A program made the position numbers and the translations under genes. Positions 4,798 to 50,522 of a stretch of DNA of 64,000 nt are shown one piece after another; position 1 is the first letter of the stretch; each line of letters starts with the position of its first letter. Where the stretch lies: the NCBI GenBank assembly GCA_016191815.1, contig JACPVI010000063.1, forward strand, positions 1 to 64,000, given 5' to 3'. This DNA comes from Myxococcales bacterium (GTDB lineage: Bacteria; Myxococcota; Myxococcia; Myxococcales; Myxococcaceae). The notes under the pieces were generated by a model. The model saw nothing but the letters and a program-made list of their open reading frames with translations. It was not told where the DNA came from and did not search any database.

Positions 4798-5843
4798 TGG
4801 ATCGAGGCATTCCCTCGACAAGCGCCACGGGTGTGTTGACCCTTCTGGGTCTGCGGGGAATCGGACCGCAGACGGCTGACCGCCTCGTCACGCGCTTCGG
4901 GACCCTGGGCGAGCTACGCGAGGCCTCGCCGCGCGATCTCGAAGGCGCCGTGTCCGCCGGGGCTCTTCCGACGTTGCGTGAAGAGAAGGCCTGGGAGATC
5001 GCCCACCGCCACGCGCAAGAGCTGCTCGAGGAGGCAGATCGCCGCAGCGTCCAGGTGCTGACCGCGTGGGAAGATACCTACCCGGTCCATCTGCGGACGA
5101 TCCCGGACCGGCCCCTCGTCGTCTACCTACGCGGGCAGCTGCCAACCAGCCCGAGGACGGTCGCGTGCATCGGCACCCGCGAGCCAACCCACTTCGGTGA
5201 GAAGGCGACGCGGGGCATCGTAAGCGCGCTCGTCGAGCGCGGTTGGAGCATCGTGAGCGGACTTGCGCTCGGGGTCGACGCGCTCGCGCACGAGGCCGCG
5301 CTGGAAGCCAAGGGTCACACGGTAGCAATCCTCGGGAACGGCCTCGACGCCGTCTACCCGAAGAAGAATGCCGACCTCGCGGAGCGCATCCTGGCCGCTG
5401 GCGGCGCTTGGATGAGCGAGCAGCCATTCGGCGCCCCCGCCGTTCCACGCAACCTGGTGCAGCGTGATCGGCTTCAGAGCGGCATGTCGGTCGGCACCGT
5501 AGTCATGCAGACCGACATCGTCGGCGGCTCGATGCACACCGTGCGGTTCACGCTTCTGCAGGGGCGCCTGCTGTTCGCGCCCGTCCCGCAGGGTCCGCAC
5601 GCGGCGGAACCAAAGAGTCGCGGCATTCTGGCACTCACGCAGCGGACGGGAGTGGAGCTGGCCCGCCTCCTAGAGACGCAGGGCGAGTACGCGGAGCTCC
5701 TGCGCCGCGAGTATGCCACGCGCCCGGTCGCCACTCCGATCGTCGGCCGCGAGGACTATGACAAGCTCCTCCAGACGCTGGAGGCGGTCGTCGAGGGCCG
5801 TCGCCCCGCCGGGCGTCGTGACCCACAGCTCGGCCTCTTCTAG
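4794..5843 (+). CDS. dprA: DprA/Smf-like Rossmann-fold DNA-processing protein
   Basis: 349 residues. A helix-hairpin-helix-like N-terminus (GLRGIGPQTADRLVTRFG) precedes the DprA Rossmann domain (about 110-320), with VACIGTREPT, IVSGLALGVDALAHEAAL, VAILGNGLDAVYP and RNLVQRDRLQSGMS. Classical DprA loads RecA on incoming single-stranded DNA. Here the gene is coupled to an XRE repressor and a HAD/phosphoribosyltransferase, a context suggesting an immune role rather than transformation. The last five residues are QLGLF (345-349), matching the sliding-clamp-binding consensus, so DnaN contact is likely. Family membership is clear; the role is inferred. Confidence 0.85.
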   Translation: MMDRGIPSTSATGVLTLLGLRGIGPQTADRLVTRFGTLGELREASPRDLEGAVSAGALPTLREEKAWEIAHRHAQELLEEADRRSVQVLTAWEDTYPVHLRTIPDRPLVVYLRGQLPTSPRTVACIGTREPTHFGEKATRGIVSALVERGWSIVSGLALGVDALAHEAALEAKGHTVAILGNGLDAVYPKKNADLAERILAAGGAWMSEQPFGAPAVPRNLVQRDRLQSGMSVGTVVMQTDIVGGSMHTVRFTLLQGRLLFAPVPQGPHAAEPKSRGILALTQRTGVELARLLETQGEYAELLRREYATRPVATPIVGREDYDKLLQTLEAVVEGRRPAGRRDPQLGLF

Positions 5844-5866
5844 CCGCCGCAACCCGGAAAAGACGC

Positions 5867-7099
5867 GTGCCGCCGACGGCCTTCCTGTTCGACCTCGACA
5901 TGACGTTGGTGGATTCTTCGGCGCTCGACGATTGGCGTACGCGTCAATTGTGGCAGCACGTCCGCGCCAACATGGGACAGGTCAAGCCCTTCGCCTTCAG
6001 CACCGTCTCCGCGCACGAGCTGCCTGGCCGGTTGAAGGCGCTCGGGCACCGGGTCGCGGTGGTGACCTCGTCGCCCCGGTGGTACGCGGAGCAGCTCCTG
6101 TCACAGTTCGGCGTGACCTACGACGCGCTCGTAGCCTACGGGGATACGACGCAGCACAAGCCCGACCCGGAGCCCATCAACGCTGCTCTTGCCACGCTCG
6201 GCGCCGCGGCGGAAGACGCCTACCATATCGGCGATGCGCCCATCGACGTTGAGGCGAGCTATCACGCCGGTGTCGCCTCTATTGGCGCGGGCTGGGGGGT
6301 TCGGGACCTCGAAACCTTCTGTTCGGCGGCGCCTGACATCCTCGTGCTCAAGCCGAGCTCGTTGCTCAAGCTCGACACGCTGGAGCGCCGAGGCTACTTC
6401 GCCGAGGTCCTTTCCGACGGCTTGGAACCGAAGGCGCATCGCGGGTCCATCCTCCCGTGTGGTGGCACTCCGGTGCGGTACGCGCTCGGGCGCTACTTCA
6501 CCGCCTCCGACCCACGGCACGCGACGAGCAAGCTGTCATCGAATCTGCTCACGCTGAAGAACGGCGACGGTCCCGCATCCGTGATGGGCCGCGCGCTCGG
6601 TGAGTTCCTGAAGAAGATCGACTGGACCCCAGATTACATCGTCCCAGTGCCGCCCAAGCCCAGCCAGCCTCGGAACCGCTTCAAGGCCGTCCTTGAGGCC
6701 GCAGAGCCGTGGATTCCAGAAGAGACCAACGTTTACCTCGACGGTCTTGCGTGCGTGAAAGAGGTTCAGGGCTACAAGGCCATGGGCCCGCTCGAGCGCG
6801 CGGCGGCCATTCGCGGTGTTTTCGCATCGAAGTACACGTGGAACAACGGGCGCGTGCTGCTCCTGGACGACGTCCTCACGACCGGGGAGACAGTCACGGA
6901 GTCTGCACGCGTGCTCATGGCCAACGCGGTCGCCGAGGTCCGTGTCGTGGCCCTCGGCAAGGACCAGCAAGTCTTCATGCACAAGCAGTGCCCGAGCTGC
7001 GGGCGCACGATGAAGGTGCGGACCAACAGCTACACCGGCGAGAAGTTCTGGGGCTGCTCCGGCTATCCCGACTCCTGTCAGTACAGCGAGAACCTGTAG
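5867..7099 (+). CDS. HAD hydrolase - phosphoribosyltransferase - topoisomerase-type zinc finger fusion
   Basis: 410 residues, three domains. An N-terminal HAD phosphatase has FDLDMTLVDSS, the motif II serine in VVTSSPRWYA, HKPDPEP and GDAPIDVEA. A ComF/PRT-like domain carries the PRPP loop LLLDDVLTTGETV. The C-terminus (about 375-405) is a four-cysteine finger (CPSCGRTM...GCSGYPDSC) like those of topoisomerase I tails. It starts at GTG 5867, 23 bases after dprA, completing the XRE-dprA operon. A nucleotide- or DNA-linked immune function is plausible but unproven. It ends 13 bases from the stop of the convergent phage polyprotein, at the prophage boundary. Confidence 0.82.
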   Translation: MPPTAFLFDLDMTLVDSSALDDWRTRQLWQHVRANMGQVKPFAFSTVSAHELPGRLKALGHRVAVVTSSPRWYAEQLLSQFGVTYDALVAYGDTTQHKPDPEPINAALATLGAAAEDAYHIGDAPIDVEASYHAGVASIGAGWGVRDLETFCSAAPDILVLKPSSLLKLDTLERRGYFAEVLSDGLEPKAHRGSILPCGGTPVRYALGRYFTASDPRHATSKLSSNLLTLKNGDGPASVMGRALGEFLKKIDWTPDYIVPVPPKPSQPRNRFKAVLEAAEPWIPEETNVYLDGLACVKEVQGYKAMGPLERAAAIRGVFASKYTWNNGRVLLLDDVLTTGETVTESARVLMANAVAEVRVVALGKDQQVFMHKQCPSCGRTMKVRTNSYTGEKFWGCSGYPDSCQYSENL

Positions 7100-7112: not shown

Positions 7113-10100
7113 TCAGGCTGACTGGGTTCGAATCGCATTCCCGCCGATGCTCCAGCCGGAAATTGCGCCGTCCTTGATCTGCTTCCAGAGGTCGTTGTCC
7201 AGTACGCGCGCGGCGAGGAGCCACGTCCCCTTCTTCACCCGCTTGCCGTCGACCTCGAAGTCGACGGGCGCCAGGTACGACTCGAGGATCTTGACCTGGT
7301 CGCCGAGCAGCTCCCGGTGCATGAGGCCGATGTTGCGGTACTCCTCCATGAACCGGTGCGCGGCATCCCGGACCTCGGCGCCCGAGTACACGTCCTTCTG
7401 GGCGTCCACGGTCTCGGGCTCGAGCACGATGCCCAGCACGTAGCGCTCCTCGCCCGTCTTCAGGAGCGGGATGCGCTTGGCGAGCGCGGCGGCGAGCATC
7501 TTCTTGAACTCCTGCGGCTGCGCCAGGTGGATGACCTCCTCGGGGGACATCGGCGGCTCGGCGGTGCGGTCGATGACGACCGGCGTGAACCACGTGATGC
7601 TCTGCTTGCCCCCGGCGCGGTCGATGAGAAGCTCGGTCACCTCCACGCGGATGACGTCGCCCACGTTGGCATCGAGCTTCGCGTTGAACGTCTTCCCGAC
7701 CGGCGCGTAGAGCTTTCCGCCGACGTCCACGGTCTCCTTCCAGCGGTCGGCCTCCTCGCGCGGGACGGGGCCGACGGCGCCGAAGAAGTTGTAGACGTCG
7801 GGCGCGTCCTTCACGGGGTGCCGGTCGTAGACGAGAGCGCGGACCTCGCGGACGAGCTTGAGCTTCGCCCACGCGTCGTTCTCTCCGCCGAGCGAGTAGG
7901 TCGAGGAGATGAGCTTGAGCATGGCGCCCTCGGAGCCCGGGATCTTCGCCGCGCGGTCGATGGCGCGCCGGAGCGCGTCGATGGTGCGGGCAGTCGAAGT
8001 CTCGACTTCCTCCAGGTGCTTGAGTCGCCGTCCCTCGAAGAAGAGATCCAGGACCTCGCGGCGACGCACGTAGGGCTCGAAGGTGAGGTTGCGGTGGCGC
8101 CAGTAGAGGATGTCGAAGACCTGCACGCGCGCGCGGGAGTCGTCGCGCGCCTCGTCCGTGCGGAACTCTCCGAGCTCGCGCCGCGGCACCGGGTCGCCCG
8201 CCTCGTCGAAGTCGAAGAACTCGCCGTCGAGGATGAAGTCCCCGGGGAGGGCGGCGAGCTCGGCGGAGAGGTTCGGCAGCGCCGGCGAGATGTCGCGCTT
8301 GGTGTCCTCGGTGAAGACGAGGACCTTGTCCCCGGCCTTCTCCAGGACGACGCGGAAGCCGTTGAACTTGGGCTCGATGGCGATGCCGCCCTTGAGCATC
8401 TCGGGCGTGGCCCACGCGAGGGCGGCGTCCACCTCCCGGAACTCGTTGGTCGCGCGCGGCGCCGGCTTCATCGGCTGGAAGATGGCGAGCGGCCGGAGCT
8501 GCGCGCGGTCGACGTCGGGGTCCTTCCGCGCCGGGTCCCAGATCTGCACCCCGTCCCGCACCGGCACCTCGGCCTTGGCCTCCGGGATGGCGCGGCCCGG
8601 GTCCTGGCCCCGCGCGAGCTGCCAGATGTCGCTGCCCGCCTCCTCGGCGGTGAGCGTGAACACGCCGCGGAGCTTCTGGCCCTCGAAGCGGACCTTCTTG
8701 AACGTCCGCTGGTCGTCGAGCAAGACGGCGCGCCCCCGGTCCTGGATGCGGATGGTCGAGGGCGTCTCCTTGGTGTCGTTCAGGACGTCGCCGCCCACGC
8801 CCTGGCCGGGGGCCACGTCGCCGTCGAAGGCGAGCAGCTCCTTGGACCGCCGCGGCGTCGCCACCGCGGTGATGCGCTCCTCGCCGGAGAGCGGGTCTGC
8901 CTGCAGCACCCAGGTGTCGAGCCCTGCGCCCGCGCGGTCGAGGGCCAGGTGCCACACCTGCCGCGACGGCGCGGCGCGGATGACCGTCTGCCCCTTCCAG
9001 AACTGCCACGAGAGCGTGAAGTCGACCTCGCGCGGCTGCTTCTCGACCTCCGCGGGCACGTCGTCGTCCACCCACTCCACGTCGTCGAGCTTGCGGAGCT
9101 TGCACGAGGCGACGAAGAGCCGGCTGCGCTTCTGCCACTGGCCCGCGCTCCGTCCCTCCGGAATGCGCATCGTGAAGGGTCGCCCGACCTTGGCGAGCGC
9201 GCGCCGCGCCCGGGCCGAGTCCGTGTACGCGATGACGTAGTCACCCTTGAGCTTGGACACCGCGGCGGCGATCTCCTCGGGCGCGATGCCGTCGCCGACC
9301 GCCCACTCCTCGGTGTAGGGCGGGTCCAGGAAGAAGAGCGTGCCCGGTCCGTCGCACTCCCCGAGCGTCTTCTCCCAGTCCTGCGTCACGAGCCGCACGC
9401 CCTTCAGGCGCTCCTGGAACTTCCACAGCTCGCCCAGGTCGTAGGTCTGCCCGTCGTGGATGGTGGCGAAGCCGCTCATGTTCGGCTTCGCGCCCCAGGT
9501 GCAGAGCCGGCCGTAGATGAGCTTCCAGACGCGCTCGGCGTCCGAGCCCGGCTCGCTCGCCCGGGCGCGCTCGAACCCGGTTCGGGAGACCTTCCACGGA
9601 TACCGCTCGAGCGCCGCGAACGACTTCTTGCTCAGCCGTTGGATGTAGCGGAGCGCGAAGACCACCTCCGGGTTGGCGTCCGCGAGGACCTCCTCGCGCG
9701 CCGGCTCCTTGGCGAAGAAGACCGCCGCGGCGCCGCAGAAGGGCTCGACGTACCGGGCGTGCTCCGGGAGCCGCGCCGCGAGCTTCCGCGCGTACTTGGC
9801 GGACCCGCCCCACTGCTGGAACGGGATGACGCGGGCCTTCTCCACCTCGGCATCGGTCGTCGGGGCGGAGAGGAAGAGCTTCTGCACGACGCGCCGGAAC
9901 TCGCCATCGACGAGCCTGATGTTGTCCGCGGTGAAGAAGCCCGACTCCACGAGCGCGTCGCGCATCCCGCGGGCATCCTCGCCCTTGGCCTCCCAGTAGC
10001 GGTGCTCCTTCGGCGTCACCCGCTCGAGCGACAGCGGCAACGCCGAGTAGCCGTCGGGCGGCATCGAGCGCGTCTCGACGGCGCGGGGCTTGACGACCGA

Positions 10101-13100
10101 GGGCAAGAGCTCCTTCGACAGGAACGCCGTCCAGAACGCCTCGCCCTCGGGCGAGCGGCGCCCGGCCTCGATTTCCCCCTGGGGCTCGCCGGGCTGCCCG
10201 GTGAGGAGCCTGAAGTAGAGGATGCCGTTCAGCTCCTGGCCGCCGGAGAAGAAGTACTCGTGGGAGAAGGGCTTCTGCAGGCCCCACTCGACCTTGGGGT
10301 GGTCGATGGCGACGATGACGCCCTTCTCGTTCGCGGTCGCGCCCACCTCGCCCTCGCCGAAGACCTCGCCGTCCACGTCGAGCCAGACCACGGGCTGGCG
10401 GGCCTTGGGGGCGGCGAAGACCTTGGCGGGGGCCACCAGCGGCTTCGCGTAGCGGTCGCCCTGGACGGAGAACGACCGCGCGATGCGCCGCGCCTCCTCG
10501 ACGGTGTCGACCGCGTCCGCGATGGCGCCGGGGCGCTGGAGCGAGAGCGTCCAGCCGACCAGGTGGTCGTCCACGCGCAGCCGCAGGTCGCCGTGCACGC
10601 TCCTGCCGCGGAAGTGGTACTGGAGCACCGCCGGGTGCGGGCCGCGCTCCTTGGGCAGGTCGAGCAGCGGGTCATCCTGCTTCTCGACGAGCCGCATGCG
10701 CTTGACGTCGAGCTTCGGCCGCACCTCCACCACGAGGTCGGCCAGCTCGACGTGGCTCGTGAACGGCCCGGCGTACTCGTCGTCGAGGAGCTGAAGGCGC
10801 GACGACAGCTCGGGCGGGAGCATGCGGCCCAGGCGGAACTCGATCGCCTTCCGCAGCTCGGGCGGTAGGTCGCCGCGGACGAGCACGTCGACGTCGTTCT
10901 TCGTGGCGCCGTTGTTGGCGAGGCCGCCGACCAGGTAGAGGAACGGCGCGCGCAGCTTGAAGGACTGGAAGTGGGGCAGGACCTCGGCGAGGGTGATCTC
11001 CGGCCCCATCGCCTGCCCGGAGGGGTGGACCGGCGCGAGCGCGCGCTTCACGGTGCGCCGCAGGGTCGCGGCCTCGCGGGCGAGCTCGTCGTCGGCCGCG
11101 TGCTCCATGCCGCGCCGGTGCAGCTCGTCCTGAACGAACAGCTCGGCGTTCACGAGGTCCTCGCGCTTGAGGTCCGCGGCCGACAGCCGGTCGTTGCCGG
11201 CGAAGTTGCCGCCGAAGAGCTGGTGCAGCCGGCGGTGGATGGACAGCAGCTCCTCGTCGGGCACGCCGCGCAGGCGCTCGGGGTGGACCTCGGCGACCTC
11301 GAGCTTGCGGGTCTCGACGGCGAGCGCCGCGACCCGTGCCCTGACGACCTCGGGCACGTCGCCGGCGTCAGCCTCGACGTCGATGACCTCGAGCAGCTCG
11401 TCGAGCTCCCACCCGCCCCCGAGGGACTTCTCGGTGATGGCGTAGTTCGCGATGAGGAGCTGGGGCAGCGTCTTCGGGCCGCCGACGCCTCGCATCGCCC
11501 GGATGCTGCGGGGTGTCCGGATCTTCCGGACGTGAAAGCCCTTCGTGTCGAGCTTGCCGCGCGTCCCGTAGGTCACGAGGAACCGACCCTTGATGCCGTC
11601 GAGCACCTTGCGGAACTCCATCTCGTCGAAGATGTCCTCGCCGATCTCGACGTCGTGGCCCGGGTACGGCGGGTCGAGGAAGAAGAACGTGTCCTTGCCG
11701 TCGAACTCCTTCACGAGCTCGGCGTAGTGGGCGTGGCGGACCTTCGCCGCCCGGAGGCGGTCCCGGTGCAGCTCGATGCGGTCGATGGTCCGCGCCTCGA
11801 CGCCCTCGGCGTTCGGGTTGTAGCTCTTGCCGCGCAGCTTCCCGTAGGAGAAGTGCGAGAGGTACAGGAACCGGTAGAGCTTCTCGACCTTGTTCCTCGG
11901 CCGAGCCTCCTGCAGCGCCTTGAACGTCGTCCTCCGGCCGACCCATTCCTTCTTGCGCAGGGCCTCGAGCTCGCCGTCGGTCAGCGTCTTGATGGCCTTG
12001 AAGGCGAAGGCGATGTCGGGGTCCGCGTCGCCGAGCACCTCGACCTCGACCGGCTCCTTTTCGAAGAAGACGGCCGCGCTGCCAGCGAACGGCTCGACGT
12101 AGACCTTGTGCGGCGTGATGAGCTTGACGAGGCGGGCCGCCAGCCGTTTCTTGCCCGCGGGAGAGCCCCAGATGGTCTTCTCCACGGGGTCGGCCGCGGT
12201 GATGTTCGGCAGCAGCATCTGCCGCTCCTGTGGCTCGGCGGCCTTCTCGAGGCGGTAGTTGGTCGCGACCAAGGTCACGCTCTTGCCGAGGCCTTGGCCT
12301 TGGTGCGCGCCGACGCCCGAGGTGTGCCGCCAGCGCGCGACGTGGAAGCCCTTGAAGAGCTGGTCCGTGCCCTCGGAGCGCGTGCCGTAGGTGACGAGGA
12401 ACTTCCCGTCGATGCGCCGCAGCGCCTTGCCGAAGCGCTTCTCGTCCCAGTCGTCGTGGCCGACCTCCGCCTCGTACCCAGGGTACGGCGGGTCGAGGAA
12501 CAAGAACGTGTCTGGTGCGTCGAACTCGTCGACCACGTCCTCGTAGTCGGCGCACCGGACGACGACGTTCTTGAGCCGCGGCGCGAACTTCTCCAGGCGG
12601 TCGATGAACCGGGCCTCGACGCCGATGTGCTTGTCCGGCATCGTGCCGCGCCGCAGCTTGTTGAACGAGAAGTACGCGAGGTAGGCGAAGCGGTAGAAGC
12701 GCTCGACATCGTCCTCGGGCTCGGACTCGTAGAGCTTCCTGAACCGCTCCGCGTCGCCCACCCAGGACCTGCGCTTGAGGCGCGCGAGCTTCGCGGGCGT
12801 GAGGTTCTTCACGAACCGGAACGCGAAGGCGATCTCAGGGTCGCGGTCGGCGAGCACCTCGACCTCGGACGGCTCCTTGGCCCAGAACACCTGCGCGCCA
12901 CCCGCGAAGGGCTCCACGTATACGCGGTGCTTCGGGATGGCCGCGACGATGCGCTTCGCCAGGAGCTTCTTCCCGGCGGGAGAGCCCCACAGCGACTTCT
13001 CGATGTCACAGTCGCCGCGCAGGAGGGCGAGGAGGGAGCCCGCGCGGGCGAGCGCCTCTTCGGCCGCGACATCGGGACGCGACGCCTCGACGAATGCGCG

Positions 13101-13163
13101 CGCCCGCGCGAGCGCCGCCTCCACGGGCTCGGCCCGCTTCGCGATGGGAGCCGCCTCTTCCAC
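7113..13163 (-). CDS. phage polyprotein: three Dam methyltransferases, nucleotidyltransferase-like, LigD-PE-like, DNA ligase, XkdF protease
   Basis: One uninterrupted frame of 2016 residues. Two near-tandem Dam-type (D12) methyltransferases have VEPFAGG/VEPFAGS and DPPYPG at Asp224 and Asp497. A nucleotidyltransferase-like motif follows (VGGLA...NDVDVLV, Asp757/759), then a LigD 3'-phosphoesterase-like segment (HFRGRSVHGDLRLRV, His850). A third, diverged methyltransferase has DPPYTE (Asp1280), followed by a degenerate LigD-like segment. An ATP-dependent ligase core starts at Lys1599 (KFNGFR; Asn where Asp is usual), with ILDGEFFDF, EGAMLK and AKLKL, plus an OB-like segment. The C-terminus (about 1890-2016) is an XkdF-type phage protease, with likely catalytic His1949 (GLMHRE) and Ser2005 (GWSIGG). 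GTG 13163 is chosen because it overlaps the upstream stop; ATG 13271 would read back through the neighbour. Confidence 0.85.
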   Translation of the reverse strand: MEEAAPIAKRAEPVEAALARARAFVEASRPDVAAEEALARAGSLLALLRGDCDIEKSLWGSPAGKKLLAKRIVAAIPKHRVYVEPFAGGAQVFWAKEPSEVEVLADRDPEIAFAFRFVKNLTPAKLARLKRRSWVGDAERFRKLYESEPEDDVERFYRFAYLAYFSFNKLRRGTMPDKHIGVEARFIDRLEKFAPRLKNVVVRCADYEDVVDEFDAPDTFLFLDPPYPGYEAEVGHDDWDEKRFGKALRRIDGKFLVTYGTRSEGTDQLFKGFHVARWRHTSGVGAHQGQGLGKSVTLVATNYRLEKAAEPQERQMLLPNITAADPVEKTIWGSPAGKKRLAARLVKLITPHKVYVEPFAGSAAVFFEKEPVEVEVLGDADPDIAFAFKAIKTLTDGELEALRKKEWVGRRTTFKALQEARPRNKVEKLYRFLYLSHFSYGKLRGKSYNPNAEGVEARTIDRIELHRDRLRAAKVRHAHYAELVKEFDGKDTFFFLDPPYPGHDVEIGEDIFDEMEFRKVLDGIKGRFLVTYGTRGKLDTKGFHVRKIRTPRSIRAMRGVGGPKTLPQLLIANYAITEKSLGGGWELDELLEVIDVEADAGDVPEVVRARVAALAVETRKLEVAEVHPERLRGVPDEELLSIHRRLHQLFGGNFAGNDRLSAADLKREDLVNAELFVQDELHRRGMEHAADDELAREAATLRRTVKRALAPVHPSGQAMGPEITLAEVLPHFQSFKLRAPFLYLVGGLANNGATKNDVDVLVRGDLPPELRKAIEFRLGRMLPPELSSRLQLLDDEYAGPFTSHVELADLVVEVRPKLDVKRMRLVEKQDDPLLDLPKERGPHPAVLQYHFRGRSVHGDLRLRVDDHLVGWTLSLQRPGAIADAVDTVEEARRIARSFSVQGDRYAKPLVAPAKVFAAPKARQPVVWLDVDGEVFGEGEVGATANEKGVIVAIDHPKVEWGLQKPFSHEYFFSGGQELNGILYFRLLTGQPGEPQGEIEAGRRSPEGEAFWTAFLSKELLPSVVKPRAVETRSMPPDGYSALPLSLERVTPKEHRYWEAKGEDARGMRDALVESGFFTADNIRLVDGEFRRVVQKLFLSAPTTDAEVEKARVIPFQQWGGSAKYARKLAARLPEHARYVEPFCGAAAVFFAKEPAREEVLADANPEVVFALRYIQRLSKKSFAALERYPWKVSRTGFERARASEPGSDAERVWKLIYGRLCTWGAKPNMSGFATIHDGQTYDLGELWKFQERLKGVRLVTQDWEKTLGECDGPGTLFFLDPPYTEEWAVGDGIAPEEIAAAVSKLKGDYVIAYTDSARARRALAKVGRPFTMRIPEGRSAGQWQKRSRLFVASCKLRKLDDVEWVDDDVPAEVEKQPREVDFTLSWQFWKGQTVIRAAPSRQVWHLALDRAGAGLDTWVLQADPLSGEERITAVATPRRSKELLAFDGDVAPGQGVGGDVLNDTKETPSTIRIQDRGRAVLLDDQRTFKKVRFEGQKLRGVFTLTAEEAGSDIWQLARGQDPGRAIPEAKAEVPVRDGVQIWDPARKDPDVDRAQLRPLAIFQPMKPAPRATNEFREVDAALAWATPEMLKGGIAIEPKFNGFRVVLEKAGDKVLVFTEDTKRDISPALPNLSAELAALPGDFILDGEFFDFDEAGDPVPRRELGEFRTDEARDDSRARVQVFDILYWRHRNLTFEPYVRRREVLDLFFEGRRLKHLEEVETSTARTIDALRRAIDRAAKIPGSEGAMLKLISSTYSLGGENDAWAKLKLVREVRALVYDRHPVKDAPDVYNFFGAVGPVPREEADRWKETVDVGGKLYAPVGKTFNAKLDANVGDVIRVEVTELLIDRAGGKQSITWFTPVVIDRTAEPPMSPEEVIHLAQPQEFKKMLAAALAKRIPLLKTGEERYVLGIVLEPETVDAQKDVYSGAEVRDAAHRFMEEYRNIGLMHRELLGDQVKILESYLAPVDFEVDGKRVKKGTWLLAARVLDNDLWKQIKDGAISGWSIGGNAIRTQSA

Positions 13164-13741
13164 TACGCCCCCGGGTTGCGCACGCCGGCCGGGTCGGCGC
13201 CCCACGCCGGTCCGTCCTCGGCCTTCCGCACGCCCTCGCGGAACTCCGGCGTGTTCATATCGAAGGGCCACGTCGCGTCCTCGCCCTTGGCCACCTTGCC
13301 CTCGCCGCCCTTGTCCGCCTTCTGAGCCGGGGCGCGCAGCGCCTGCAGCTCCGTGCCGAGCCGGGTGAGCGCCTTGTTCAGGTCCTCGGGGTTCGCTGCG
13401 AAGGCCGAGCTCCCGAGCGCCGCCTCGAGCGCGACCGGGGACACCTCCTTCTCCGACTTGTCCGCGGCCGCGGTGGTCTCCTCCACGAAGACCTGGACCT
13501 CGATGGCCTCGCTCTCGCTGTCCACGAACGCCTGCTTGGCCGCCTCCACCGTCTGGCCGAGGGCGCGCAGGCGGCGGACGGCCTTGTCGGGCGGCTCCTT
13601 CGCCGCCTTCTCGAGCTGCGCGATCGCGTAGCCGACGAGGTCATCGGGTCCCATCCGCTGCGTCTTGGCCACCGGGCGCGTGTCCTTGAGCACCCGCTCG
13701 ACCGCCGTCGAGACCTTCTCCAGCATCGTCATCGCTTCCAT
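13163..13741 (-). CDS. phage head-operon protein, possible scaffold
   Basis: 192 residues, largely helical and charged (DDLVGYAIAQLEKAAKE, VRRLRALGQTVEAAKQAF), with a lysine/glycine-rich tail and WPFDMNTPEFREGV near the C-terminus. It sits between the MuF/portal genes and the protease-bearing polyprotein, where scaffolding proteins are often encoded, and its stop overlaps the GTG of that gene. The start at ATG 13741 has an AAGGAGAGG ribosome site. The scaffold role is inferred from position and helical character; no family motif was recognised. Confidence 0.7.
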   Translation of the reverse strand: MEAMTMLEKVSTAVERVLKDTRPVAKTQRMGPDDLVGYAIAQLEKAAKEPPDKAVRRLRALGQTVEAAKQAFVDSESEAIEVQVFVEETTAAADKSEKEVSPVALEAALGSSAFAANPEDLNKALTRLGTELQALRAPAQKADKGGEGKVAKGEDATWPFDMNTPEFREGVRKAEDGPAWGADPAGVRNPGA

Positions 13742-13781: not shown

Positions 13782-14078
13782 TCACGTCTCTCCGTCGCTC
13801 GGCACCCAGACCGTCCGGGCCTCGGGCCTCCACGGCACGCCGTCGAGCTCGCACCGCAGGTACTTCGGGAGGTGGTCGAGGACCCGCTGCAAGCCCCAGC
13901 CGAGGTCGCCGCGAAGCTGGCGAAGCAACCGCTCGCAGAGGGCGAAGCGCCGCCGAACCTCGTCGCCGGTCGGGCGCGAGCCGTCCTCGGCGAAGCTCCC
14001 CGAGATGGCGCGCTCGACGGCGAGCATCACCCGCGCCACCTGGTCCCGCGTCACGAGGTCGAGGAAGGGGCCGGTCAT
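13782..14078 (-). CDS. small phage head-operon protein
   Basis: A 98-residue protein whose ATG overlaps the stop of the MuF gene (ATGA). It is mostly helical (VARVMLAVERAISGSF, RRRFALCERLLRQLRGDLG) and ends WVPSDGET. The overlap and collinearity with portal and MuF make it a genuine phage gene. I recognise no domain. It could be a head-completion or scaffold-related factor, on position alone. Confidence 0.65.
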   Translation of the reverse strand: MTGPFLDLVTRDQVARVMLAVERAISGSFAEDGSRPTGDEVRRRFALCERLLRQLRGDLGWGLQRVLDHLPKYLRCELDGVPWRPEARTVWVPSDGET

Positions 14079-15122
14079 GCTGCCACCAAGGTGCTGCGAC
14101 AGCGGCCGTGCAAGGGCGGCAACTGCAAGCCAGCCGCCTCGATCTGTCGCTCCGAGAGCGCCCGCGAGTAGTCGCCGACCTCGTCGCGCCTCCCCACCGC
14201 CGGTTCGTCCACCTGGGCCACCGCCCGCCGGCGACCGCCCCGCTCGTAGAAGAGCACCTGGTTGCCGTCGCGGTCGGCGCCGACCTGCACGAACGGTTGC
14301 ACCTCGCGGATGAGCTCCGGGTCGCGCGCCCGCTCGACCTCGCGGAACCGGTCCGCGGCCTTGGCGACCATGAACACCTTGCCGTGCATGAACCGGCAAA
14401 CCTCGCTGGTCGCCTCGTCGAGCACCGCCTCGAAGCGGTAGCGCTCGATGCCGGCCTCCTCGAACGCCGCGACCTGGGTGAACGTCCGGGCCCGGTTCGT
14501 GAAGACCATCGACACGACCTCCCAGTAGTCGCGGCCGCGGTCGAAGGCGTCCCGCGACATGGCGCCCGAGAGCTCGGCCACGATGTCGTCGCGCCCGAGG
14601 CCGCGCTCGACCCCGGACGTCACGATGTCCTTCGCCTTCCGCGAAAAATCCTCCCGGCGCCGGCCGTACTCGTCGCGGACGAAGTTGCCCTGGCTCTCGC
14701 GCACGAACTTCGCGATCCGCTCGTCGGTGGAGGTGAGGTCCGCCCCGATGCGCAGGCCGAAGCGGCGCACGGCCGACTGCCTGGCGCGGCCGACGACGCG
14801 CTCGGCCTCGGCCTCGAACTGCTGCTCGACCACGGGCAGCACCTGGTCCTCGACGCCGCGCAGGGCCTGCCGCGCCGCGCGCACCACCTGGTCCCGGGCG
14901 GCGGGCGCCAGGTTCGGCCAGTCGACGTCGAGCCGCTCGAGCGCGTGCCGCAGGGCCGCGTCCTCGGCGGGCCGGGCCACGCCCCGCAGCGCCCGCGACA
15001 GCCGGCGGACGATGGTCATGAAGTCGCCCTGGTCGAGCGGGTCGAGTGCCTTCTCGACGCGGTAGACGTCCCGGAGGAGGTCGTCCGCCGCATCGGCGCC
15101 GGCGCCGAGGAGGTCGAGGGCT

Positions 15123-15133
<11 letters not shown>
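14075..15133 (-). CDS. MuF/SPP1 gp7-type phage head morphogenesis protein
   Basis: 352 residues. An N-terminal helical half precedes the MuF-like domain: VVSMVFTNRARTFTQVAAFEEAG, ATSEVCRFMHGKVF and the C-terminal LPPLHGRCRSTL. The C..HG...HGRCRS pattern is the usual signature of phage minor head proteins. These sit beside the portal and are injected or help DNA exit. ATG 15133 lies inside the end of the portal gene, an 11-base overlap. The protein ends shortly after the MuF motif, so no toxin is fused to it. Confidence 0.82.
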
Positions 15134-17050
<1,917 letters not shown>

Positions 17051-17051
<1 letters not shown>

Positions 17052-17347
17052 CACACGGCCCTCTCGTCGAAGCCGGCGAGCACGGCCTTCGGATCGCCGG
17101 ACGTGTAGGCCGCCGTCCGCACCCGAACGAACTCCAGCGTCTCCGGCACGGGCACGACGCCCGGCGCGCTCTGCGCGGCGCCGACGGCGAAGTAGTCGCT
17201 GCCGTCGATGCTGCCCTCGACCTGCACCGTCGCGACGAACGTGCCGTGGATCTGGACGTACTTGTCGCGGAAGCGGAACACCTGCTCCGCGCGACCGGCC
17301 TCGACCGCCTGCTTGACCTCGAGCCGCACCTTCTCCGGGCGTGCCAT
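17051..17347 (-). CDS. small phage structural-region protein
   Basis: 98 residues, beta-rich (YVQIHGTFVATVQVEGSIDG, FVRVRTAAYTSGD), consistent with a small beta-sandwich virion or head-tail component. The ATG follows AGGAGGACGCTG and overlaps the stop of the preceding gene. No family was assigned; it is supported by tight packing between TerL and portal. Confidence 0.65.
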
Positions 17348-17624: not shown

Positions 17625-19055
17625 CTATCCGATGATCCGCACGCCGACCTCGATGACGTCGCCCGGCTGCGGGCCGCGCTCCTTGCGGCACGCGAGCATC
17701 ACGGCCCAGGCGCGGTCGGCGTGGCCGCGAGCCACCTCGTCCCGCTCGACCTCGAACGACGGTTTGCCGCTCGGGGTGAGCCGCCGCTTGATGCTGTGGA
17801 CCTGGGCCACGAGGTCTCGGTCCTTGGGCAGCACGACGTCCTTGCGCTGCAGGAGAATCTTGAGGTCGTTCGCCCAGGTCTCCTTCGACTCGTTGGTGAA
17901 CGTCTCGGGAACCACCTGCGCGAAGTCGCGGCGGAGGTTCTCCGCAAGGTGCATGCCGAGGCCGTTCTGGTCGATGGACAGCCGGCCGATGGGCAGCGTG
18001 TTGAGCAGCCTGCGGAGGTCCGCCTCCTGCTCGGCGAACGGTACGCGGTCGTAGCTCCGGAGCAGCCGGCACTCCTTCTTGCCGTCCAACTCCTCGAACA
18101 GCGCCAGCTCCGAGAGGTCCCGCTTGCGTCCGACGTCGAAGCCGGCGACGAGCCGGCCCTTCACGACCGGGAGCCCGGCGAAGTCGTCCGCGAGCACGAG
18201 GTCGTCGCTCGTGCACGGGAGGATGAGCTCGTAGGGGAAGAACGAGTAGCTCTCGTCGCAGTACTGGCACTCGAACTCCTGCTCGAAGTCCTCGAGCAGC
18301 AGCGAGTCGAACTGGTCCTGGATGTCCTTGGTGCCGAAGGCGCGCACGCGCTGCTCGGTGGGCATGAGCACCGCCTCGCGCGAGGCGCGCTGGACGTCCG
18401 TGCTGAAGAACCGGCACAGCCACCACGGCGCCCGCAGCCGCCAGTAGGTCGGGTAGCGGCGCAGCTCCTGGCGGGCAATCTCCCAGAACACCCCGCGCCG
18501 GCCAAGCGGCGACGAGCAGCCCGTGAGCTGACCGCGGGAACGGAGGATGAGCGCGGTCGAGCCCTTGTAGACCTCGCGGTCGTTGGCGTAGTGGGCGAGC
18601 TCGTCCAGGTACAGGTCGCCCTTCTTCCCGCGCGGCGCCTTCGACGGGTTCGAGATGATGCGCGAGACGCGCTTCGAGGCGCTGTTGGAGAGGAAGGCGA
18701 GTTCCGTCTTCGAGTCGGTGACGAGCTTCTTGCGGAAGGCGAGCGGCAACTCCTCGGCGAGCTGGCGCGCGTAGTTCACCTTTTCTTTCGCATCCTCGAG
18801 GTTGTAGCTGACCATCACCGAGGTGTGCGCCTCGCGCAGGTGACAGCGCGCGATGGCTTCGCACGCGAACAGGAACGAGAAGCCCACCTGGCGCGCCTTC
18901 TCGACCCACCTGTACTTCTTCGCCGAGCGCAGGAACGCCACCTGGTACGGCTCGAAGACCAGCGGCTCCTCGTTGTAGTGACCGACGCCCGTGAGGAACC
19001 CGAGCTCGGTGCCGAGCCAGTCGAGGAGATCCTGCTCGTCCCTCTTCACGACCAC
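17625..19055 (-). CDS. phage terminase large subunit
   Basis: About 476 residues. The deviant Walker A is [16 protein letters not shown] and Walker B is [10 protein letters not shown]. The nuclease domain has the RNase-H-type acidic residues in [21 protein letters not shown] and [16 protein letters not shown] in the middle (ECQYCDESY) may bind metal. It powers DNA packaging and cuts the concatemer. GTG 19055 is the most likely start; GTG 19049 is possible. It is divergent from the integrase at 19134, and TerS lies 2 kb upstream across the HNH gene. Confidence 0.88.
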
Positions 19056-19098
19056 GAGCGGCCCGCCGCTCGCCTTGCCTTCCTCCGCGACCCGAGCC

Positions 19099-39320: not shown

Positions 39321-39871
39321 GCGGCAAGAGGGCATTGGCGTCGAGCGCGGAACGCGCGGCGGTGGCCAGCACGGCACTCCAGCTCGCGGCGCTCGAAAAG
39401 ATGAGCGTGGGCGAGCTCGCGGAGAAGTACCGCGAGGTGTTCGGCGAGCCGACGCGCACCAGGAACAAGGAGTACCTGCGCAAGCGCATCGCCTGGCGCA
39501 TCCAGGAACTGACCGAGGGCGGGCTCTCCACGCGCGCGCTCAAGCGCATCGAGCAGCTCGCCCCGGAAGCGCCCGTGCGCTGGCGGCAGCCGGTTGCGCG
39601 GAAGGACGGCGCCGGCGGCAAGGTCGTCCCCATCACGCGCCCCGCGCGCGATCCGCGCCTTCCGCCAGCGGGGACGGTCATCACGCGCCTCCACGACGGC
39701 GTCGAGCACAAGGTCACCATCCTCGATGACGGGTTCGAGTACGGGGGCGAGCGCCACCGGTCGCTCTCGAAGGTGGCCCGCCTCATCACGGGCACCCCGT
39801 GGAACGGGTTCCTCTTCTTCTTCGGTCGCGCCAACGGCACCCGGCCCCAGGCCGAGGAAGGTGCCGCATGA
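39317..39871 (+). CDS. DUF2924 family protein
   Basis: 184 residues: LAALEKMSVGELAEKYREVF, GEPTRTRNKEYLRKRIAWRI, then PPAGTVITRLHDGVEHKVTI, LDDGFEYGGERHRSLSKVAR and LITGTPWNGFLFF. This matches the DUF2924 family, which I know chiefly as the constant upstream partner of large serine recombinases; it may help site recognition or direction. ATG 39317 follows AAGGAGG. The stop overlaps the recombinase ATG. Confidence 0.85.
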   Translation: MSGKRALASSAERAAVASTALQLAALEKMSVGELAEKYREVFGEPTRTRNKEYLRKRIAWRIQELTEGGLSTRALKRIEQLAPEAPVRWRQPVARKDGAGGKVVPITRPARDPRLPPAGTVITRLHDGVEHKVTILDDGFEYGGERHRSLSKVARLITGTPWNGFLFFFGRANGTRPQAEEGAA

Positions 39872-41454
39872 AGCGGGCGAAGAACGGCGGTCAGAAGGCC
39901 GCGCCTGAGGTGAAGCGGTGCGCGGTCTACACGCGAAAGTCGACGTCGCAGGGCCTCGAGCAGGAGTTCAACAGCCTCGACGCGCAACGCGAGGCCTGCG
40001 TCGGCTACATCCAGCGGCAACCGGGCTGGACGCTCGTGGACGAGCACTACGACGACGGCGGCTTCACCGGCGCGAACATCGAGCGGCCGGCCTTCCAGCG
40101 CCTCCTGGCCGACGCCGAGGCGGGGAAGATCGACGTGGTGGTCGTCTACAAGGTCGACCGGCTGAGCCGCTCGCTCCTCGACTTCGCCAAGGTCATGGAG
40201 CGGTTCAACGCCGCGGACGCGTCGTTCGTCTCGGTGACCCAGAACTTCTCGACCGCCGACGCGATGGGGCGGCTCACGCTCAACATGTTGATGAGCTTCG
40301 CCGAATTCGAGAGGTCCATGATCGCCGAGCGCACGCGGGACAAGATCACGATGGCGCGCCGGAGGGGGAAGTGGACCGGCGGTCCCGTCCCGCTCGGCTA
40401 CAAGGTCGAAGAGAAGCACCTCGTGGTGGACGAGCTCGAGGCGGTGCTCGTGCGCGAGATTTTCGCGGTCTACCTCGAGCAGCGCTCGGCCCTGGCGGTC
40501 GCGCGCATCCTCAACGAGCGTCATCGCTCGACGAAGCGCCACCGCGCCGCCAACGGCAACCTCCGCGAGTCGCGGGGCTGGAACAAGGCCGACGTGCTGC
40601 GCGTCCTCAAGAACCCCGTCTACGCGGGCTACATGCCCTGCGGGGGCGAGCTGCACGAGGCCGAGCACGCGCCGCTCATTCCCCGGGAGACCTTCACGCG
40701 GGCGACGACCCTCCTCGAGGAGGCGACGCTCTCGAAGGAGGACCATGGCCGGAACCCGGACTACCTGCTTCGCGGGCTGCTCCGGTGCGCGTGCTGCGGC
40801 GCGGGATTCACGCCGGCGTCCACCCGGAAGGGCCGAAGGGAGTTTCGGTACTACCGCTGCATCACGAGGGACAAGGAAGGGAAGGACGCCTGCCCGTCGC
40901 GCCCGCTCTCGGCCGGCGCCATCGAGGACTACGTGCTCGAGCGGCTGCGCGCGGAGGCCGCCGATGGCTCGCTCGCCACCGAGGTCGTCACGGGCGTGAA
41001 GCAGCGGGTCGCCGCCCGGCGGAAGGACATCTTGACGGAGCGCCAGAAGCTGCCGCCGGAGATCGCCTCCCTCTCGGACGAGGGCAAGCGCCTCGTCGAG
41101 ACCATCGCCAGCGTGAACGGCGCCGGGCGCCGGCTGCTTGACGAGCGCCTGCAGGAGGTCGGCGAGCAGCTCGCGCGGTGCGAGGCGCGCCTGGCGACGG
41201 CTGAGCGCGAGCTCGCGAACCTCGACGCTCTGGAGGTCGAGGTCACCTGGGTCGCGCAGTGCCTCGCGGACTTCGACAAGGTCTGGGACGTGCTGACGCC
41301 CGAGAACCGGGGCCGCGTCCTTCGCACCATGGTTGAGCGCGTCGAGGTGAACGAGCCCGCCAACCAGGTGAGCGTGTTCGTCACCGACCTCACCGCCGGG
41401 CTGCCCGGCGAGACGCCGACATCCGAACCCAAGCAGCAGGAGGCCCGGCCATGA
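39868..41454 (+). CDS. large serine recombinase
   Basis: 528 residues. The resolvase domain has catalytic Ser25 in VYTRKSTSQGLEQEFNSL, then VVVYKVDRLSRSLLDFAKVM and SFAEFERSMIAERTRDKI. Next come the recombinase domain (LAVARILNERHRSTKRH, VLRVLKNPVYAGYMP), a zinc ribbon (CACCGAGFTPAS...YRCITRDKEGKDACPSR) and a coiled coil (about 390-480). It integrates or excises the element between att sites. It is read from promoter D and coupled to DUF2924 before and an HTH gene after. The att sites could not be identified by eye. Confidence 0.9.
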   Translation: MKRAKNGGQKAAPEVKRCAVYTRKSTSQGLEQEFNSLDAQREACVGYIQRQPGWTLVDEHYDDGGFTGANIERPAFQRLLADAEAGKIDVVVVYKVDRLSRSLLDFAKVMERFNAADASFVSVTQNFSTADAMGRLTLNMLMSFAEFERSMIAERTRDKITMARRRGKWTGGPVPLGYKVEEKHLVVDELEAVLVREIFAVYLEQRSALAVARILNERHRSTKRHRAANGNLRESRGWNKADVLRVLKNPVYAGYMPCGGELHEAEHAPLIPRETFTRATTLLEEATLSKEDHGRNPDYLLRGLLRCACCGAGFTPASTRKGRREFRYYRCITRDKEGKDACPSRPLSAGAIEDYVLERLRAEAADGSLATEVVTGVKQRVAARRKDILTERQKLPPEIASLSDEGKRLVETIASVNGAGRRLLDERLQEVGEQLARCEARLATAERELANLDALEVEVTWVAQCLADFDKVWDVLTPENRGRVLRTMVERVEVNEPANQVSVFVTDLTAGLPGETPTSEPKQQEARP

Positions 41455-43330: not shown

Positions 43331-43561
43331 ATGCCCGACGAAATCCTGACCCTACCCGAAGTCGCCCAGCTCCTGAAGGTGGCGGAGAAGACCGTCTACA
43401 CGATGGCCCAGAATGCGGAGATCCCGGCATTCAAGGTCCGTGGCCAGTGGCGCTTCAAGCGAACGGACATCGATCGGTGGATCGAAGAACGCAAGGCGGC
43501 CTCGCGTGACGACGAAGGGGGCAGCGATGAGAAGGGCCCGACGTCGAAGAGGCCGCGATGA
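43331..43561 (+). CDS. excisionase/MerR-type HTH protein, first gene of the defence operon
   Basis: 76 residues: DEILTLPEVAQLLKVAEKTV, YTMAQNAEIPAFKVRGQWRF and KRTDIDRWIEERKAA form a winged helix of the excisionase (HTH_17) family. Such small proteins head several defence operons and act as autorepressors. The tail is acidic and variable. Its stop overlaps the helicase ATG (ATGA). The palindrome at 43290-43314 is the likely binding site. Confidence 0.82.
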   Translation: MPDEILTLPEVAQLLKVAEKTVYTMAQNAEIPAFKVRGQWRFKRTDIDRWIEERKAASRDDEGGSDEKGPTSKRPR

Positions 43562-46500
43562 AGGTCAGCGATCTGAAGCCGGGGATCATCGTTCGCGGGC
43601 CAATGCTCCCGGAGGCCATCGAGGTACTCGTCGTCACGCCGCTCGGCGACGTCGTGAAGCTGACGGGCGCTGGTCAAAAGACGGGACAGGTCCATCAGCG
43701 CGTGCTCCACCCCGACCAGCTCAAGCTGCTCGACGCGACGCCCGAGACCGAGCCGTTCGACGGCGACCCGCTTCACTTCAAACTCGGCGTCGAGGCGGCG
43801 CGCCTCGGCCTCGCCTACGAGTACGACCCGTACTTCTCGCTGTCGATCGCTCGCGTCGATCCGCTCCCCCACCAACTCGAGGCCGTCTACGACTACTTCC
43901 TGAAGCTGCCGCGCATCCGCTTCCTCCTCGCCGATGATCCAGGCGCCGGCAAGACGATCATGGCGGGGCTGCTTCTCAAGGAGCTGAAGGTCCGCGGCCT
44001 CGTGACCCGCACGCTGATCGTCGCGCCGGCGAACCTCACGTTCCAGTGGCAGCGCGAGCTCAAGGACAAGTTCCGCGAGCAGTTCGACGTCATGCGCGGC
44101 GAGGTGCTGCGGACCCAGTACGGCCAGAATCCCTGGCAGGAGCGGAACCAGGTCGTCACCTCGGTCTCGTGGATCTCTCGCGTCGAGGATGCCAAAGAGA
44201 GCCTGCTCCGCTCGTCGTGGGACCTCGTCATCGTCGACGAGGCGCACAAGATGAGCGCCTACAGCTCGGACAAGAAGACGCTCGCCTTCCAGATAGGCGA
44301 GGCGCTCTCGCAGCGCACCGACCACTTCCTGTTGATGACCGCGACGCCGCACAAGGGCGACCCGGAGAACTTCCGCCTGTTCCTGAGCCTGCTTGATCGC
44401 GACGTGTACGGCGACGTGAAGAGCCTCGAAGAGGCGATGCGCCGCCACGAGGCGCCCTTCTACCTACGTCGCCTGAAGGAGGCTCTGGTTTCGTTCCCCG
44501 ACCCCGAGACCGGCGAGGTGAAGAAGCTGTTCACGAACCGCGACGTCCGGACGACAAAGTTCGAGCTCGACGGCGACGAATTCGACTTCTACGACGCGCT
44601 CACCCGCTACGTCGAGGACCAGTCCATCAAGGCCGCCGCTGCCGAGAACGTGCAGGCGAACATCCTCTCGTTCCAGATGGCAATGCTGCAGCGCCGGTTC
44701 GCATCGAGCATGTACGCCGTCCGGCGGAGCCTCGAGCGCATGCGCGACAAGCGAAAGCGGATCCTCGAAGACCCGGAGCGCTACCGGCAGGAGCAAATCG
44801 ATCGGCGGCTGCCCGACGACTTCGACGACCTGCCCGAGGACGAGCAGTCGAAGATCATGACTAACGCCGAGGAGACGGTCCTGGCCGTCGACCCGGTTTC
44901 GCTTCGTGACGAGATCCAGCGGATCGACAAGCTCGTCGACCAGGCGCGCGGGCTGGAGAAGCGCGAGATCGAGTCGAAGCTCAAGAAGCTCCGCCAGGTG
45001 CTGAACGAGCAGCACATCTTCAAGGACCCGCGGATGAAGCTCCTCGTTTTCACCGAGCACAAGGACACGCTCGACTACCTCGCGGGCGATGGCCGCGACG
45101 GTCGCCCCCTCGGGAAGCTGCGAGAGTGGGGGCTGAGCGTCACCCAGATTCACGGCGGCCTCCCGATCGGCGATCGCGACACGCCGAACACGCGCATCTA
45201 CGCCGAGCGCGAGTTCCGCGAGGACTGCCAGGTGCTCGTGGCCACCGAGGCGGCCGGCGAGGGCATTAATCTCCAGTTCTGCTGGCTGATGATCAACTAC
45301 GACATCCCATGGAACCCTGTACGCCTCGAGCAGCGCATGGGCCGCATCCACCGCTACGGGCAGCAGAAGGACTGCCTCATCTTCAACTTCGCTGCGGTGA
45401 ACACGCGCGAAGGCCGCGTGCTCGAAAAGCTCCTGATGCGGCTCGCGGAGATCAAGGAGGAACTCGGGACGGACAAGGTCTTCGACGTCGTCGGTGAGAT
45501 GCTGCCGTCGAACCTGCTCGAGAAGATGTTCCGCGAGATGTACGCGAAGAGAATCAGCGAGAGCAACATCGCCGATCGCATCGTGCACGACATCGATCCC
45601 GAGCGCTTCAAGCGCATCACGGGCTCGACGCTCGAGGGGCTCGCGAAGAAGGAGCTGAACCTCTCGGCGCTCGTCGGCAAATCGGTGGAAGCGAAGGAGC
45701 GGCGACTCGTTCCCGAGGTGGTGGAGGACTTCTTCACCGTGGCGGGGCCCATCGCGGGAGTCCACCCATCGCCCGTCCGAGGGAAGGACCATGTCTATCG
45801 CGTCGGGAAGGTGCCGAAGACGCTGAGCGCGATCGGTGAGCGCCTCGAGCCGCGGTTCGGCAAACTCGGGCGCGAGTACCAGCGCGTCGTCTTCGACAAA
45901 CGGCTGCTCGGTGACGACGCCACGCTCGAGTGGGTGACGCCGGGACACCCGCTGTTCGAGGTCGTTCGCAGTGACGTCTCCGATCGCGTCAGCGATGATC
46001 TTCGCCGGGGTGCCGTGCTCTGGGACTTGCACGCCAAGGCGCCCTACCGCCTCGACCTATACGCCGCGTCGATCAAGGACGGTCGCGGCAACACGCTGCA
46101 CAAGAAGCTCTTCGTTGTGCGAGCCGATCCAGACGGGACGCTCACGCTCCGCCAGCCGACGCTGTTCCTCGACCTGATCCCGTCCGCGAAGGGGACTCTG
46201 TCACCGACCCTGGCCGCGCTTCCCGATCGCGATGCTGTCGAGGTCCACCTCGTGAATCAGGCGCTCAACCCGTTTCTCTCCGAGGTCGCGGACCAGCGCA
46301 CGAAGGAAAACCGGATCGTGCGCGAGCACATCGAGATCTCGCTGCAGGAGCTCATCAACCGGCAGCAGATCGCGCTCGCCGAGCTGCTCAACCGCCGCGT
46401 CGGCGGCGAAAACATCCCTGGGCTCGAGGGCAACATCAAGCAGGCGGAGGACCACCTCGACGAGCTCAACGCCCGCCTCGACAGGCGCCGGCAAGAGCTC

Positions 46501-49918: not shown

Positions 49919-50508
49919 CAGGACTGGCGACGAAGTGGGCGTCGCAGTTCTACGCGACGCTCGGAGACGACCGGCCAGCAGCCGAGGAGCTGCGGGATGC
50001 ATCGCTCCGTTCCGATCTCATGCGATGGACGGCGACGCTCACCGGGATCGTGGTCCGTTCGTTCGAGCAGCTCGGACTGGCTGCTGCGGGGAAGGGATAT
50101 CGGTGCTCAGTTCTCCCGGTGAAGCGGAACGAGTACCTCGCGCAAGACGTGATGGCGTTCCCGTCGGCCGGCAACGGATGGCGCTTTCCGGCTGCCGTTT
50201 GCGAACTCGAGAACTCGGCGGACGGCGACCTCGTGGCCTACTCCCTCTGGAAGGTGCTCTGCGTTCGCTGCGGGCTTCGCGTCGTCTTCTGCTACCGCCC
50301 CGACCCTGCTGCAGGCCCGTCATTTGTCTCGGCGCTCGCGAGCAATGTCGTCGATGCGATGCCCATCGCCGAGCGTGCCGCGCTCGACGGCGAGACGCTT
50401 GTCGTCGTCGGCTCGCGCAACGAGTCCAGCACCTTCCCCTACGGCTTCTTCCAGGCGTGGAAGCTCAACTCCAACACGGGGCGTTTCGAGCGCTTCGCGC
50501 GGCAGTGA
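49915..50508 (+). CDS. small protein of the DUF499 operon, possible PD-(D/E)XK fold
   Basis: 197 residues between the methyltransferase (4-base overlap) and the DUF499 gene (14-base gap). It contains LPVKRNEYLAQDVMAFPS, FPAAVCELENSADGDLVAYS, LWKVLCVRCGLRVVFCYR and VVVGSRNESSTFPYGFFQAW. The order Glu, Asp, strand with ELEN, then helix and strand, is that of a restriction-endonuclease-like core in which Asn takes the place of Lys. That makes an effector or inactive nuclease possible, but I have no family match. It is the least understood part of this operon. Confidence 0.7.
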   Translation: MTGLATKWASQFYATLGDDRPAAEELRDASLRSDLMRWTATLTGIVVRSFEQLGLAAAGKGYRCSVLPVKRNEYLAQDVMAFPSAGNGWRFPAAVCELENSADGDLVAYSLWKVLCVRCGLRVVFCYRPDPAAGPSFVSALASNVVDAMPIAERAALDGETLVVVGSRNESSTFPYGFFQAWKLNSNTGRFERFARQ

Positions 50509-50522
50509 AAGGCGAGAACAAC

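Follow-up and report, generated by a model that had tools for sequence, protein, structure and literature searches.

Domain organisation of the giant protein

What would a phage do with a single polypeptide in which DNA methyltransferases, DNA-joining enzymes and a head protease are fused? We addressed this question for the giant open reading frame (ORF) at positions 7113-13163 of a 64,000-nucleotide stretch of Myxococcales bacterium DNA (the window). With moderate confidence we read its product as a polyvalent head cargo, released by its own protease, that would methylate, clean and seal DNA on entry; we infer packaging, cleavage and injection from the genes.

An earlier reading, made from the sequence alone and without giving a strand, had placed a series of catalytic motifs in one frame. 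All of them were found in one uninterrupted minus-strand frame and every residue number was exact: D224, D497 and D1280 (DPPY), D757/D759, H850, K1599, H1949 and S2005. This frame was the best coding frame of the region in the codon-usage gene call (860 log-odds units). Read on the plus strand, 7113-13163 contains stops, and its long ORFs in that direction are antisense shadows. The GTG start at 13163 overlaps the stop of the upstream gene (TAGTG), so the two are probably coupled. Catalytic residues are numbered here on the 2016-aa protein and domain residue ranges on the 2052-aa protein that starts at an alternative GTG. The following features were assigned:

7113..13163, minus strand: giant ORF, 2016 aa from GTG (2052 aa from the alternative in-frame GTG at 13271)
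12237..12989, minus strand: Dam1, D12 class N6-adenine methyltransferase, DPPYPG (Pfam PF02086, TIGR00571, motif)
11412..12194, minus strand: Dam2, DPPYPG (profile matches, Pfam and PHROGs)
11079..11282, minus strand: small helical domain directly before NT, kept across the family (family conservation)
10782..11099, minus strand: NT, Pol-beta-type nucleotidyltransferase, VGG...NDVD (pattern and family conservation)
10242..10655, minus strand: PE1, LigD-type 3'-phosphoesterase, H..RG...H.D.R (signature and predicted fold)
9108..9821, minus strand: Dam3, DPPYTE (Pfam)
8595..8999, minus strand: PE2, a second, degenerate LigD_N-like barrel without the PE1 histidines (profile)
7857..8489, minus strand: ATP-dependent DNA ligase adenylation domain, K1599 in KFNG (Pfam, structure match)
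7527..7802, minus strand: ligase OB fold (predicted structure)
7128..7451, minus strand: XkdF-type head maturation protease (Peptidase_S78_2), H1949 and S2005 (Pfam, PHROGs)

The domain order is thus Dam-Dam-[helical domain]-NT-PE1-Dam-PE2-ligase-OB-XkdF. Above the Pfam cut-offs we found MethyltransfD12 (three copies, 2e-44, each with its DPPY motif), DNA_ligase_A_M (3e-20) and Peptidase_S78_2/XkdF (1e-26; 93.5 bits against a cut-off of 24, with His and Ser conserved); the sequence-only reading had made itself depend on profile matches for the last two segments. A PHROGs search also matched head maturation protease families. The C-terminal structure model gave a ligase with an OB fold in Foldseek, and sequence profiles of this part match DNA ligases. 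Together with the Foldseek results for the PE1 and ligase folds, these matches bear out the earlier assignment of three Dam domains, a nucleotidyltransferase, a LigD-type phosphoesterase, a ligase and XkdF.

NT (residues 725-830), a region left unnamed by Pfam, shows a GG...DxD pattern of Pol-beta type: the initial Gly of VGG and the initial Asp were found in 28/28 relatives, the second Asp in 27/28. PE1 (residues 870-1010) was weak by sequence profile (PF13298 0.018; TIGR02777 9.7e-4). It was predicted as a beta barrel with pLDDT >85 over most of the domain, and the best PDB matches of the model were archaeal and Pseudomonas LigD 3'-phosphoesterases (3p43/3n9b, Foldseek E 8.4e-5, probability 1.00). 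Both His and the Asp of its signature were retained in 36/36 relatives and the Arg in 35/36. PE2 covers residues 1425-1560. No AEP primase/polymerase domain was matched in the giant protein by Pfam or NCBIfam, and an Rfam search gave no match. The helical domain before NT gave weak matches to Pyr_excise (T4 endonuclease V-like) in relatives; its identity as a true T4 endonuclease V was dropped, as a PDB search gave no match and the Pfam matches were weak only.

A second copy and purifying selection

A second arm of the element lies 92 kb away on the same 105,832-bp contig (C57), in the opposite direction; its genes are arranged alike. Over 1630 codons the giant ORF of this arm shares 85% identity with the first (nonsynonymous divergence, dN, 0.09; synonymous divergence, dS, 0.39; dN/dS 0.23), and copy against copy every enzymatic domain gave a dN/dS of 0.13-0.26. 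The giant ORF is under purifying selection. The second copy has the same domain order up to the ligase, inside which the contig ends.

These data bear on the possibility that the ORF joins unrelated genes, through a sequencing error or because the assembly recombined the two copies. About 100 identical bases are common to both copies at 8.27-8.37 kb, where the contig of the second copy ends; such identity is a usual cause of a contig break. Since the second copy stops at this end, the ligase-to-XkdF join in this genome rests on one copy. The shared order and the dN/dS of 0.23 argue against a frame artefact, and the same ligase-OB-XkdF and NT-PE joins are present in independent virus contigs. 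We therefore rejected an assembly artefact, which we regard as very improbable.

The second copy also carries a 295-aa insert between Dam2 and NT (C57:102128-103027; L027:3128-4027) which resembles an ADP-ribosyltransferase (ART; motifs YRG, FTTS, HGEL) and begins with a QPRDEGGRF motif. The likeness comes from a weak DRAT match (E 0.045) and from motifs read by eye; a PDB structure search with this insert gave no match.

Relatives with and without the repair modules

We refer to the NT, PE and ligase blocks, with or without methylases, as the kit. The prevalent form of the protein in the phylum (195 genomes) is a Dam-XkdF fusion of ~460 aa (phrog_13242); two genomes have Dam-Dam-XkdF and one (G186) has Dam-Dam-Dam-XkdF. 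These proteins of Myxococcaceae-type prophages are homologous to the window protein at both ends (Dam and XkdF) and occupy the same position after MuF; they differ in having one or two Dams (three in G186) and no kit. Both kit blocks are missing in frame from three relatives (G186, L144 and L149), whose identity to the window protein is 60-79% over most of the parts in common; the blocks absent from G186 correspond to residues ~637-1083 and 1400-1928. L082 has no Dam and is 63% identical to the window protein over NT-PE1 and 50% over PE2-ligase-XkdF. From these alignments, two sets of modules seem to have been interleaved in the single frame of the window protein.

The full-length giant protein as a query recovered no relatives in virus or genome contigs; these were recovered by domain alignments. 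A scan of genome contigs with the NT alignment was likewise without result, and the stretch 7500-9000 (PE2-ligase-OB) found nothing in the phage database. The NT-PE1 module had a single match among 50,697 phage records (ANMV-1) and a single one among 193 genomes of the phylum (the present one). In total the kit family comprised 50 distinct proteins at 95% identity, mostly from IMG/VR and including both copies described here and ANMV-1; 49 are therefore additional to the window ORF. The kit is thus largely invisible to annotation, yet has relatives in dozens of uncultured virus contigs.

Kit proteins with XkdF range from 739 to 2310 aa, a few being cut by contig ends, and two kit orders were observed, NT-PE1-PE2-LIG-OB and NT-LIG-OB-PE1-PE2. 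XkdF was C-terminal in 30/30 distinct kit proteins carrying it, a count that is enriched because the third scan had XkdF among its patterns, a PE1-only scan having already given a dozen. The exact domain order of the window protein, which the sequence-only reading had thought undescribed, was seen in no other family member: the nearest was L123 (Dam-Dam-helix-NT-PE1-PE2-LIG-OB-XkdF), and L083 has a Dam at the place of the third one, without the first two.

On a tree of XkdF (84 rows, 115 columns), kit presence changes 9 times, at least 4 of these being forced by well-supported branches, and the window XkdF groups among kit-less Dam-XkdF proteins. The same XkdF type is thus found with one, two or three Dams, or with the kit with or without Dam, a variable payload joined to an unchanging C-terminus. 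Pyr_excise-like segments are a further payload type among relatives. As separate observations, one kit protein (L096:1360-3804) has a metallo-beta-lactamase domain (Pfam 2e-9) N-terminal to its Dam, and a module of 85 aa recurs in 1-3 copies before the kit at the N-terminus of L083, L087, L088, L091, L093 and others. An ASCH-like assignment of the latter was not kept, as it gave only a weak PDB match (E about 0.1).

Head-gene context and proposed role

The genes preceding the giant ORF encode the following products, transcribed in the order TerL-portal-MuF-small gene (g009)-giant ORF:

17625..19058, minus strand: terminase large subunit
15123..17054, minus strand: portal protein
14075..15133, minus strand: MuF-type minor head protein
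13163..13741, minus strand: small upstream gene, 192 aa, stop overlapping the giant ORF start; duplicated with the giant ORF and present in G186

The same setting is found in the family. Using the models built for the window, portal and/or MuF were detected upstream in 23 of the 35 distinct kit loci having at least 3.5 kb of upstream sequence, and PHROGs identified a portal in at least six more of the remaining checked loci (L092, L101, L102, L107, L108, L111). Neighbours of the kit include several major head protein families. One MuF gene product (L105:265-3495), beside a Dam-PE1-Dam-S78 protein, has a HipA-C-like kinase match below cut-off.

Because the protease is constant, the DNA-acting enzymes are variable and the gene lies in a head operon, we read the protein as head cargo. 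It would be translated together with portal and MuF during head assembly and carried into the procapsid by its C-terminal, procapsid-internal XkdF, which at maturation would cut itself, and perhaps also the modules, free. The payload would then be ejected together with the phage DNA. In the recipient cell, the three Dam methyltransferases may mask restriction sites by adenine methylation, the phosphoesterase may trim blocked 3' ends, the Pol-beta-type enzyme may add or fill nucleotides and the ligase may seal nicks or join ends, converting damaged or linear incoming DNA to an intact, modified and circular form. A Ku gene is present in the host genome, so a partner for non-homologous end joining (NHEJ) is available. 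In the wider family, we see about an even chance that tailed viruses of bacteria and archaea carry inside the particle a protease-released kit for end repair. Acting at entry, it would repair, circularise and mask the genome as a packaged pathway akin to NHEJ or base excision repair.

XkdF is taken to be assemblin-like in its fold. C-terminal peptidases of the assemblin-like type have been described in phage polyvalent proteins, with processing proposed to occur during virion assembly (Iyer et al. 2017, PMC5512222). The giant protein resembles this class in being very large and multi-domain, with several enzymatic domains in one polypeptide, a portal-terminase head context and the protease last; Pol-beta nucleotidyltransferase and ART modules are known in the class. 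It differs in its payload: DNA ligase is unmentioned in that paper, and no description of a LigD-type phosphoesterase and ligase core combined with Dam and XkdF was found there. Protein modification is suggested for other polyvalent Pol-beta-type domains (PMC5512222), and by analogy NT could instead modify proteins; its constant company of PE and ligase favours DNA as the NT substrate. No description of a ligase or LigD-type phosphoesterase in such proteins was found in the open-access literature. The class, polyvalent proteins with a C-terminal head protease, is known, and this payload appears to be new.

Like LigD of bacterial NHEJ, the protein joins a phosphoesterase fold and an ATP-dependent ligase in one chain; unlike LigD, it has the Pol-beta-type NT in place of a primase/polymerase and is fused to Dam and a head protease. 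Another close relative is the 'ATP-dependent DNA ligase' AJP62006 of ANMV-1, a virus of methane-oxidising archaea (KP703175), with NT-ligase-OB-PE-PE encoded between portal and MuF; its module order is different and it has neither Dam nor XkdF. The ligase is unmentioned in the main text of the paper describing that virus (PMC4372165). The MuF-type protein of ANMV-1 (L004:5868-9368) has a very long cysteine-rich repeat region before its MuF-like end. That delivery of this kind exists is shown by P1 DarB (250 kDa) and T4 Alt, both of which travel in the phage head, Alt being cut by the prohead protease gp21 (PMC9024508, PMC9026906). The P1 Dar system and T4 Alt with the T4 internal proteins serve here as a model of how such cargo would work: their payload is not homologous, they are not fused to the protease and they contain no repair enzymes. 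A methylase-helicase of DarB type is absent, as neither Pfam nor PHROGs detected a helicase domain in the giant protein and its methylases are D12 Dam.

Alternatively, the producing cell might be the place of action: ahead of or during packaging, the enzymes would methylate new DNA and seal nicks in concatemers; the fusion would then provide co-expression or tethering to the portal, and the protease would release only itself, with no injection. The late head operon fits this scenario, Dam enzymes are usually free phage proteins working in the producing cell and a ligase would aid packaging of nick-free DNA. We nevertheless consider it rather unlikely, since it leaves unexplained the repeated fusion of payloads to a procapsid-internal protease, the swapping of modules and the ART-like module of the second copy.

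Several observations weigh against the head-cargo reading. Ligase motif I of the giant protein is KxNG and not KxDG, with the lysine and the ligase fold present; KxNG is found in nearly all members of the NT-PE-PE-LIG-XkdF order and KxDG in the ANMV-type order. One family member (L084) has no motif I lysine, some others (L137, L139) have lost a detectable ligase, and most kits of the ANMV-type order have no XkdF. No recognisable cleavage motif turned up at the module borders, neither one of R[DN]x.G[RK][FW] type nor one in the linker leading into XkdF; the conserved ...K..EERYV segment resembles the beginning of XkdF itself. In relatives, XkdF is followed by a gene starting ...VHRLVDMVVEEVSLV... 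and then by a 312-aa protein, which we take to be the major capsid protein (MCP) by position. No homologue of these two genes (MCP/scaffold) was found in this genome. As the prophage appears to have no capsid and tail genes left, this copy may no longer be packaged. The virion-packaged self-defence kit of the sequence-only reading was partly supported: the domains and a head-gene context fitting head-delivered cargo stood, and the missing capsid and tail genes count against it.

If the head-cargo reading is true, DNA repair and end joining would join the functions delivered by phage protein injection, in a natural system of constant delivery domain and swappable cargo, with loading and release possibly handled by the XkdF protease. 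Its dozens of relatives in uncultured viruses point to phages that may equip their virions with a DNA protection-and-repair kit.

State of the prophage and neighbouring genes

Since the two genes that follow the protease in relatives have no homologue in the genome, the prophage arm is cut directly after XkdF. No att repeats of 18 bp or more were found at the 7.1 kb junction. A convergent gene, itself preceded by a ShosA-type gene, lies 13 bp from the end of the giant ORF.

The protein could thus be a relic of a decaying arm, or be kept for another use such as DNA modification for the surrounding defence-rich island. The absence of an MCP or scaffold homologue, the 13-bp distance to the convergent ShosA-linked gene and the contig end inside the second copy all fit decay. 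Against it, both copies have long open frames with a dN/dS of about 0.23, and elsewhere members of the family are found in head gene clusters that include major head protein families. We judge decay improbable; it concerns this copy and not the function of the family.

The two related prophage arms of contig C57 (~7.1-38.8 kb and 72-105.8 kb) are in opposite orientation and flank defence genes. At window 4833-7099, adjoining the prophage break, ShosA (PADLOC 5e-71) is followed by a HAD-phosphoribosyltransferase gene, a ShosTA-like pair. Two HmaABC-type defence systems (SNF2 helicase, methylase, ATPase) lie in mirror orientation between the arms (window 43558-53315 and contig 61053-71511), and a serine recombinase is encoded at 39868-41454 of the contig.

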